Of a DNA stretch of 41,741 bases, positions 13,262 to 15,607 are shown one piece after another. The DNA is taken from the IMG/VR virus record IMGVR_UViG_3300047378_000946, positions 1-41,741 of that record. The stretch is one strand, 5' to 3'. Position 1 is the first letter of the stretch. Every line of letters starts with the position of its first letter. Origin of the DNA: a virus. Below the pieces are notes generated by a model. That model worked only from the letters and a program-made list of their open reading frames with translations. It searched no databases and was not told where the DNA came from. Position numbers and translations under genes: made by a program.

Positions 13262-13280
13262 GGGGGAGATGAACTCCCCC
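13262..13280 (-). terminator. Terminator after the capsid gene
   Basis: Minus strand GGGGGAG, 5-base loop, CTCCCCC, followed by AAGTTTTTACT. It sits 22 bases past the capsid stop and would attenuate transcription between the capsid gene and the connector genes. Confidence 0.7.
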
Positions 13281-13302: not shown

Positions 13303-15285
13303 TTAAGCTACAAGATCAATCTTAACACAAGGCTGGTCTGCACCGGCACCTGCAACGATTTCTTCGAAACCGAGAGACTGACTAGCAACGATAACGCGAC
13401 GCTGGTTCATTACTTCGTAATCCTGCTCAACGGTTACACCGCGAAGACGAGGCATTACGTAGTTACGAGTGTAACATGCGAATGCTGCTGGGATACCTGC
13501 TGCTTCTGCAGGGAACTGATCAGATACTACTACTGGAGTACCGTAAACGGCTCCGATAGTACCCGTTACACGAGCTGCAAGATCAGATCCTACCTCGTCC
13601 AGAGTCTGGAAGCTAGCATCTTCGAGCAAGTCGTAGTACATGTTCTGGCTTACGATGTAGGCCAAATCAGTTGGGTTCAAGCCGTACTTGCCCATTTGCT
13701 GACGTGCTGCAAGCAGTCTTGCTGAAGTCATCTTAACACCATCAGAGATGTCCATAGTTGCTGCTGCTGCTGCTGCAACACCGTCAAGACCGACGATAGT
13801 GCCGTTACCATTAAGAACAACAGATTCAACAGCTTTTGCGTGAGCGCGAGCTACTGATTCAACAATCATAGGCATCAAGTTAATAAGAACTTGCTCGTCT
13901 ACATCGTTGTCCATGAACGAGCTTGAAATCAAGCGATAAGCGTTCAGGATTACTTGCTTAGGCTGGAACTTATTAGCGTTGCCGCCAGTGTTGCCTTGAT
14001 TCTGCAAGTTACCAGAAGTAGCATTGATTGCCCATGCAGCCGCGTCAACGTCAGGCTGGATAGGAAGTACAGTTGCTGCACCATTTACAGGGATTTCACG
14101 GAACAAACGAGCTACTTTCAACTCATTCATGATTTCTTTCTCGATGAGACTAGAAACTTCCTGATCAATATCAGCGGCTGCTGTAGTATAGTCGATACCT
14201 GCTTTTTCTTGTAAGTCACGAGCGAACTCAGTGTTCATACCCTTACGAGTCATAACACCCAATAGGTGAGCTTTCAAGAACTCTTGGCCCCACTTAGATA
14301 CATCACCCTTAGAAGAACGGTCAGTGAAAGACTTCTTGCTATTTTGCATAGCATCGATCTCTGCTGATTTCTCTTCCAACTCAGACTTATACTGCTTGAG
14401 TACTTCGTCCATTTTTGCGTCTTTTTCAGCTAGCTTAGCTTCAACGTCAGCCATAAGAGCTTCAACGCCGGTTTGTACGCCAGTTTTAACGCGGATTTCT
14501 TCGGCTTCAACAGCCTGTGCCTTTTCAACTTCTGCTTCGGCTGCTGCCTTTGCTTCTGCTTCATCAGCTGCTTTTTGCTCGGCTTGCTTCATAGCAATCT
14601 TAGCAGCTGTGTCTTCAGCTACCTTCTTTGCAAAAGCTTCCAAGTCGATGTTTTGATTATCCATCTTGATCTCCTGATCTGCGGAATTAATATCCGCGCT
14701 TTGAGGTGTGTCACTAGCTATTCCCGAAGTAATAACTTCATCCTTAGCCAGAGACTGACCTGCTAGATCTACACGATTTGTGAAAGTTTTTTTGAATTCT
14801 TCGTACTCTTCAGAAGAGTCAAAAGACTTCGCGAGCGAAAAAGTAGCCGATTGATTGCACGGTACCGATACTACAGATACCTCAAACAACTCAGCGTCCT
14901 TAATCATAAGTCCGTCGGTTTCCTTAATATAATCAGCATCCTTGACTCGGAAACCTACGGAAAAGGCCCCAAGAACACCGTCTTTAACTAGTTCTGCAAC
15001 ATTAGCGGGTGCAGACTTGCTAATCTTACACTCTAACTCCAAACCGTTAGGTCCAGATTTCAGACCAGTGGCTCGGCCAATTGGCTTGTCATAATCATGA
15101 TTAAACAAGATAATTGGATTTTTTTCAAAGTTCTTTAGTCCACCTTTCTGCCAAGCTTCTGCTGAGATGGAGTCACCCGCGCGATCAAAATCAGCTGTAC
15201 TTGCCATTCCGCGAATCATGACAGAGCCATCGTCCTGTTCATGAGTCTTGAAAGTAGACGTCAGATTAAAGATTTTATTCATCAT
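13303..15285 (-). CDS. Fused prohead protease and major capsid protein (HK97-type)
   Basis: One 660-residue frame. Residues 1-155 form an S78-type prohead protease with H63 (FNHDYDKPIG), S109 (GAFSVGF) and an acidic residue near 132-135 (AELFEVSVVSVP). After a linker, residues 208-330 are a charged coiled coil like the HK97 delta scaffold, including an alanine/glutamate-rich stretch. The rest is an HK97-fold capsid (KWGQEFLKAHLLGVM, then LFREIPVNG, VSDQFPAEA). An in-frame start exists at 15330, but ATGATG at 15285 follows AAAAGGATTAAG at normal spacing and avoids overlapping the upstream gene. Protease and capsid are normally separate genes; fusions occur in some phages. An internal start at 14664 probably yields free capsid. 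Confidence 0.9.
   Translation of the reverse strand: MMNKIFNLTSTFKTHEQDDGSVMIRGMASTADFDRAGDSISAEAWQKGGLKNFEKNPIILFNHDYDKPIGRATGLKSGPNGLELECKISKSAPANVAELVKDGVLGAFSVGFRVKDADYIKETDGLMIKDAELFEVSVVSVPCNQSATFSLAKSFDSSEEYEEFKKTFTNRVDLAGQSLAKDEVITSGIASDTPQSADINSADQEIKMDNQNIDLEAFAKKVAEDTAAKIAMKQAEQKAADEAEAKAAAEAEVEKAQAVEAEEIRVKTGVQTGVEALMADVEAKLAEKDAKMDEVLKQYKSELEEKSAEIDAMQNSKKSFTDRSSKGDVSKWGQEFLKAHLLGVMTRKGMNTEFARDLQEKAGIDYTTAAADIDQEVSSLIEKEIMNELKVARLFREIPVNGAATVLPIQPDVDAAAWAINATSGNLQNQGNTGGNANKFQPKQVILNAYRLISSSFMDNDVDEQVLINLMPMIVESVARAHAKAVESVVLNGNGTIVGLDGVAAAAAATMDISDGVKMTSARLLAARQQMGKYGLNPTDLAYIVSQNMYYDLLEDASFQTLDEVGSDLAARVTGTIGAVYGTPVVVSDQFPAEAAGIPAAFACYTRNYVMPRLRGVTVEQDYEVMNQRRVIVASQSLGFEEIVAGAGADQPCVKIDLVA
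14662..14675 (-). promoter_or_regulatory. Internal ribosome binding site and start for stand-alone capsid protein
   Basis: Inside the protease-capsid gene, minus strand AGGAGATCAAGATGG: AGGAG at 14671-14675, 6-base gap, in-frame ATG at 14664. Translation from here gives a 453-residue scaffold-capsid product starting MDNQNIDLEAF, without the protease. Confidence 0.75.
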
Positions 15286-15286
15286 C

Positions 15287-15607
15287 TTAATCCTTTTTAA
15301 CTGCTGGTTTAACAGCAGGCTTGACCGCAACCTTAGGTTCTGGCTTTGGTGCTTTAGGTGGAGCAGGTTTTGGTTTAGGAGGAGGATTTTCCTTCTTCTT
15401 AATTTCTGCCCACACTTCTGGAAGAGAGCTCTGCATAATACCTAACATGCGACTCCAGCTCCCAAAAAAATTCAGTACAAGTCCTGCTCGAATAGGTGTT
15501 CGTGCTTCAATATGTTCATACTCACGCTTACTAAGTATTTTTCCTTCTTCTAGCATTACCATTGATACTGCTTCGAGGACCTTGCCTCTTTGTCTTAAAC
15601 TTCCCAT
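15287..15607 (-). CDS. Unknown protein with Pro/Lys-rich tail, between portal and protease-capsid genes
   Basis: A 106-residue protein of unknown family. Residues 1-72 are probably helical (KVLEAVSMVMLEEGKILSKREYEH, then AGLVLNFFGSWSRMLGIM). Residues 73-106 are a low-complexity tail of Pro, Lys and Ala with imperfect PKP/KPAV repeats, likely extended and positively charged. It shares a base with the portal stop and ends 2 bases before the protease-capsid start, so translation is probably coupled. A role in prohead assembly is possible from position alone. No catalytic or binding motif was recognised. Confidence 0.7.
   Translation of the reverse strand: MGSLRQRGKVLEAVSMVMLEEGKILSKREYEHIEARTPIRAGLVLNFFGSWSRMLGIMQSSLPEVWAEIKKKENPPPKPKPAPPKAPKPEPKVAVKPAVKPAVKKD

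Follow-up and report, generated by a model that had tools for sequence, protein, structure and literature searches.

A single minus-strand gene in the IMG/VR virus record IMGVR_UViG_3300047378_000946 (41,741 bases analysed, hereafter the window) encodes a prohead protease, a scaffolding domain and a T5-like capsid protein in one continuous frame, and a second, strongly conserved start lies inside that frame. We consider it very probable that this is a nested gene giving a minor fusion protein and a major capsid precursor, with an RNA fold within the coding sequence that probably keeps the internal start usable.

The fused protease-capsid gene (13303..15285, minus) runs from an ATG at 15285 to 13303 and comprises 660 amino acids and a stop codon. 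An upstream TTG would extend the frame to 15330; the ATG at 15285 is preferred because a good site precedes it (AAGGA, 5 nt; ribosome-binding region at 15286..15296, minus, overlapping the upstream gene at its end) and because the same start is kept in relatives. The gene belongs to a minus-strand head module with the order terminase, HNH-like gene, portal, small ORF, protease-capsid, head completion protein and tail completion protein, and a terminator-like hairpin with a U-run (13262..13280, minus) follows the capsid part. The small ORF (15287-15607) has a Pro/Lys-rich tail and stands where T5 has gene 151 (decoration protein pb10 according to the DT57C table); nothing in the databases matched it, and a comparison with T5.151 (pb10) was negative. 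A CUGCUG/CAGCAG hairpin is also seen at about 15298-15320, 5 nt before the Shine-Dalgarno sequence of the protease start.

The S78 (HK97-family) prohead protease domain covers residues 16-153 (14827..15240, minus). It is matched by Pfam PF04586 (E = 6e-15, 56.3 bits against a cut-off of 21) and by TIGR01543 (71.8 bits against a curated cut-off of 59), which places it in the HK97 family. Residues H63, S109 and E135 are unchanged across an alignment of 14 diverse relatives and, by analogy with the family, are the likely catalytic residues. Synonymous variability is also very low over codons 111-118 of the fusion (~14932-14955), a second short stretch of this kind, which lies inside the protease.

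Residues 214-644 match the T5-family structures PDB 5tjt, 8ho3 and 8zvi with E values of ~1e-41. For 8ho3 against the capsid part the values are 2e-41 (single sequence) and 5e-51 (profile), and the homology spans both the delta domain and the HK97 fold. The scaffolding (delta) domain of the capsid precursor, residues 208-361 (14203..14664, minus), is helical and aligns with T5-like precursors; an AlphaFold2 model built on a 14-row alignment, of low confidence (mean pLDDT 46) and used for the helical delta region only, has a helix at residues 215-316. All precursors compared share, in the alignment, the Lys-Ala column found ahead of the mature T5-type chain. By this alignment the delta domain is probably removed between K361 and A362, leaving a predicted mature capsid protein of 299 amino acids (13306..14202, minus), the same length as the mature chain in PDB 5tjt. 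The statement of the earlier note that protease, scaffold and capsid form one 660-residue frame is thus borne out by the ATG frame and by the Pfam/TIGR and PDB matches.

The internal start consists of a Shine-Dalgarno sequence AGGAG (14671..14675, minus) located 6 nt before an in-frame ATG (14662..14664, minus), which is codon 208 and would begin a capsid precursor of 453 amino acids. This ATG aligns with the start of the T5-family major head protein (pb8), whose precursor in T5-type phages has 458 amino acids. The motif and spacing are as the earlier note had given them. Its placing of the ATG exactly between protease and scaffold holds for the scaffold side, where the ATG is indeed the first codon, but not for the protease side, from which it is separated by a variable linker (residues ~171-207; 14665..14775, minus) that holds the RNA elements described below and ends at the internal ATG.

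Relatives, which make up a family of marine phages, were collected by scans of IMG/VR and of genome contigs, which yielded ~150 distinct sequences of 44-100% identity, some of them in marine gammaproteobacterial MAGs. The scan pattern DQEIKMDN overlaps the Shine-Dalgarno codons and is biased in that respect; capsid-only and alignment queries, and the genome contigs, gave the same result. The aligned internal ATG is present in all 67 non-redundant relatives, preceded by AGGAG in 66 and by AAGGA in one, and M208 is the only one of eight conserved in-frame ATGs to carry a Shine-Dalgarno sequence (mean dG of -8.2 vs -0.9 to +0.6). The internal site is therefore not a chance occurrence. AGGAG is kept through differing codons and residues (DQEIKM, QKETKM, KEEINM): codon 204 is AAG, CAG or GAG, with G as third base in all 67 genes, and at E205 GAG is used by 66 of the 67, even though these genes show GAA twice as often. 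Synonymous variability reaches its minimum for the gene mainly at codons 166-192 and 208-218; the linker, and within it the upstream RNA element described below, belongs to this lowest part. An internal ATG in the same frame, served by a conserved Shine-Dalgarno sequence of its own, is the arrangement of nested two-start genes of the lambda C/Nu3 kind.

The internal Shine-Dalgarno sequence is stronger than that of the protease in 64 of 66 relatives (mean of -8.2 vs -4.7 kcal/mol), which fits what a model of minor fusion and major capsid needs. Predicted accessibility is 0.59 at the internal start, compared with 0.40 at other internal ATGs (p = 2e-10) and 0.33 at the protease start. Judged from strength and accessibility, both products are predicted to be made, with the shorter one in excess, and these features support the interpretation put forward earlier, that is, a minor fusion and an abundant capsid. 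Frameshifting at an A7 run near residue 163 was also weighed and rejected, since many relatives have an interrupted run and the position of the stop in the -1 frame varies.

The earlier note missed the RNA structure at this junction. A hairpin, P3 (GCGGA-UAUUAAU-UCCGC; 14681..14697, minus), has its foot 5 nt before the Shine-Dalgarno sequence, and upstream of it lies a further RNA element (14708..14774, minus) with outer pairs GUGU/ACAC and CUAGC/GCUAG around two small hairpins. All 67 relatives have a P3-type hairpin 2-5 nt upstream of the Shine-Dalgarno sequence, and ~24 different stem sequences occur among them. At least 4 Watson-Crick pairs are formed beside the Shine-Dalgarno sequence in 61 of 67, vs 12% elsewhere in the same genes; with G-U pairs counted, the figures are 67 of 67 vs 40%. 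RNAalifold recovered P3 unprompted, along with the upstream element. The proportion of cells paired is 93.6%, compared with 87.2% in shuffles and 30-39% in slid controls, and 66 cells are changed on both sides, where shuffles give 19.4 and slid controls no more than 23. P3 and the inner hairpin account for most of this covariation; a single two-sided change (CUAAC/GUUAG in L079) is seen in the long-range CUAGC/GCUAG stem. The upstream element is present in most relatives, and short-linker relatives without it (L072, L095, L205, L206) nevertheless retain the hairpin. In L099 the hairpin is a further stem, GAGGA-GAAA-UCCUC. The folding energy of P3 is modestly lower than in synonymous shuffles (median rank of 0.18); the shuffle tests being only mildly positive, covariation and position are used as support for the hairpin. 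A covariance model places the upstream element at this site only and gave no match in T5-like phages or in other fusions (L277, L278, L281, L310, L313), and a search of Rfam 15 gave no match above the gathering score within the window. Most T5-like phages examined have no comparable hairpin abutting the capsid Shine-Dalgarno sequence.

Insulation of the start is one possible role of the hairpin, and protection of an mRNA end is another. There is a real, if lesser, chance that both products are made but that the hairpin and the upstream element serve mainly in mRNA processing or stability, in which case a stable capsid mRNA would begin with them and run to the terminator-like hairpin; this would compete only with the RNA part of our reading. 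Hairpins do flank the capsid coding region on both sides, and a variable stem at a conserved position would be typical of protective hairpins, but the fixed distance of P3 from the Shine-Dalgarno sequence would not be needed for stability alone.

The fusion itself is one open frame in 137 of the 141 distinct loci that cover the junction; of the four others, two are contigs cut off at the 5' end, one contains masked bases and one has an in-frame stop. Across the relatives the linker varies from 10 to 38 codons and is always in frame. Relatives lacking the internal site, which had been named beforehand as evidence that would speak against it, were looked for as well, and 141 loci have AGGAG with 6-nt or AAGGA with 7-nt spacing before the aligned ATG; L099 has CGGAG at the same spacing. 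One locus in a Bacteroidetes-labelled MAG contig (L207) has a masked stretch inside the capsid, with fusion and internal start present. The in-frame stop is a TAG in the linker of L090 (L090:118-120; contig IMGVR_UViG_3300007276_002107, the same contig as L212), downstream of which hairpin, Shine-Dalgarno sequence and ATG are intact. It is either a natural protease/capsid split or an error and, unless it is an error, it suggests that the fusion may not always be needed.

This locus, with its retained capsid start, and T5, which works with separate genes, are what could be said for the view that two products are made but that the fusion is merely a tolerated by-product of stop loss, an untethered protease being sufficient as in T5. 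We regard this as improbable. The 137 open loci, the single true stop and the many linker indels, none of which breaks the frame across an identity range of 44-100%, indicate that the open frame is under selection, and protease-capsid fusions exist with unrelated partners too. It is very unlikely that the conserved region is instead a DNA-level signal, for example an internal promoter or a recombination site: low synonymous variability does reach 125 nt upstream of the internal start, but changes at the pairs compensate each other, G-U pairs included. An internal promoter was rejected as a candidate, with no sigma-70-like match in the conserved region. That the fusion is the sole product, with free capsid arising by self-cleavage and the internal Shine-Dalgarno sequence incidental, is likewise very unlikely: a protease tethered to its own substrate has a precedent in P2 gpO, but the Shine-Dalgarno sequence, its spacing, the ATG and the hairpin are conserved independently of the protein sequence, and hundreds of protease domains in one shell would be bulky.

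According to the nested-gene reading that we prefer, initiation at 15285, a moderate site overlapping the end of the upstream gene, would give little of the 660-residue protease-delta-capsid fusion, and initiation at 14664, a strong and accessible site, would give abundant 453-residue delta-capsid precursor. The two would co-assemble via their common capsid part and so bring a few tethered proteases into each prohead, where these would cut the delta domains, probably at the Lys-Ala position given above, to leave the 299-residue capsid subunits. In T5, pb11 cleaves the scaffolding domain of pb8, with proheads of 775 pb8 copies (PMC5292684), and the mature capsid of DT57C is without its first 160 residues (PMC10713586); from these we infer that the minor fusion co-assembles and supplies the protease. 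The gene probably originated from a T5-like protease-capsid gene pair in which the protease stop was lost and the capsid ribosome-binding site kept. The hairpin upstream of the Shine-Dalgarno sequence, together with the further RNA element in most relatives, would keep the buried start open and perhaps strengthen it. More doubtful is a wider proposal, that the linker RNA sets the ratio of fusion to capsid, perhaps as a binding site for a head protein or for the ribosome, and that nested protease-capsid genes are a general solution to protease dosing that has evolved repeatedly.

To our knowledge, how HK97-fold phages put a small and right number of proteases into each prohead is poorly understood. 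If our reading holds, the strength of a start site would set the protease dose within one gene, and because unrelated fusion types share this layout, cultured phages could be used to test it. Many 'major capsid protein' entries of 600-700 residues are probably ~200 residues too long for the main product. The covarying RNA within a coding sequence would also be a new and specific handle on how a start inside a translated gene is kept usable.

Comparison with T5 shows both the likeness and the difference. The pb11 protease gene (T5.150) and the pb8 capsid gene (D20-21, T5.149) belong to the same protease and capsid families as the window's gene and stand in the same protease-then-capsid order, with a Shine-Dalgarno sequence before the capsid start, similar precursor and mature lengths, and a terminator annotated after the capsid gene at the place of the window's terminator-like hairpin. 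The head-module gene order of T5-like phages is likewise the same as in the window. However, protease and capsid are separate genes in these phages, with a stop between them and the capsid Shine-Dalgarno sequence at or beside that stop, whereas the window has one frame, so that its capsid, in frame with the protease, does not have its own gene as T5 pb8-type capsids do.

Other protease-capsid fusions were reached via NCBIfam NF045541, of which the window's protein is not a member (46.5 bits against a cut-off of 525, over the protease and delta part only). The fusions of NF045541 and PHROG 617 and 4523 (VP882, phiHAP-1, ECO1230-10 and roseophages; JBD68 of the ClpP type) have a protease joined to an HK97-fold capsid, as in the window, but their capsid families differ from the window's and some have a ClpP-like protease. 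An in-frame ATG with a Shine-Dalgarno sequence is found at the junction in VP882, phiHAP-1, ECO1230-10, Arya, Persinger, PPpW-3, KA2-1, RcCronus, three CRP roseophages and several ClpP-type fusions. A junction Shine-Dalgarno sequence is present in 18 of 22 fusions; among the remaining in-frame ATGs of these genes the share is 9%. In this set the junction ATGs were in part chosen by eye, the Shine-Dalgarno sequence being visible to the chooser, and many sequences are related. Such a design in independent fusions counts in favour of the nested-gene reading. In the ClpP-type genes of JBD68 and Ostro, which are GC-rich and have several in-frame ATGs with Shine-Dalgarno-like sequence, the start assignment is weak. 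Three of five further S78-type fusions have a junction Shine-Dalgarno sequence, and the two without it are cyanophages. The Synechococcus phages S-CBS1 (L325), S-CBS3 (L324) and S-LBS1 (L316) have a junction ATG without a Shine-Dalgarno sequence, in contrast to most fusions from proteobacterial phages, and its absence in cyanophages possibly reflects the initiation habits of the host.

The gpO protein of P2 is a self-cleaving protease-scaffold fusion. A P2-like protease/scaffold fusion has been described as well (PMC10612066). A literature search for internal starts in protease-capsid fusions, with most subscription papers outside its coverage, found nothing. In phage lambda, an in-frame internal start in the 3' part of the protease gene C gives Nu3, the shorter and abundant scaffold. 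The genes of lambda and of the window are both nested, but the nested product of lambda is the scaffold only, with the capsid protein gpE encoded by a separate gene.
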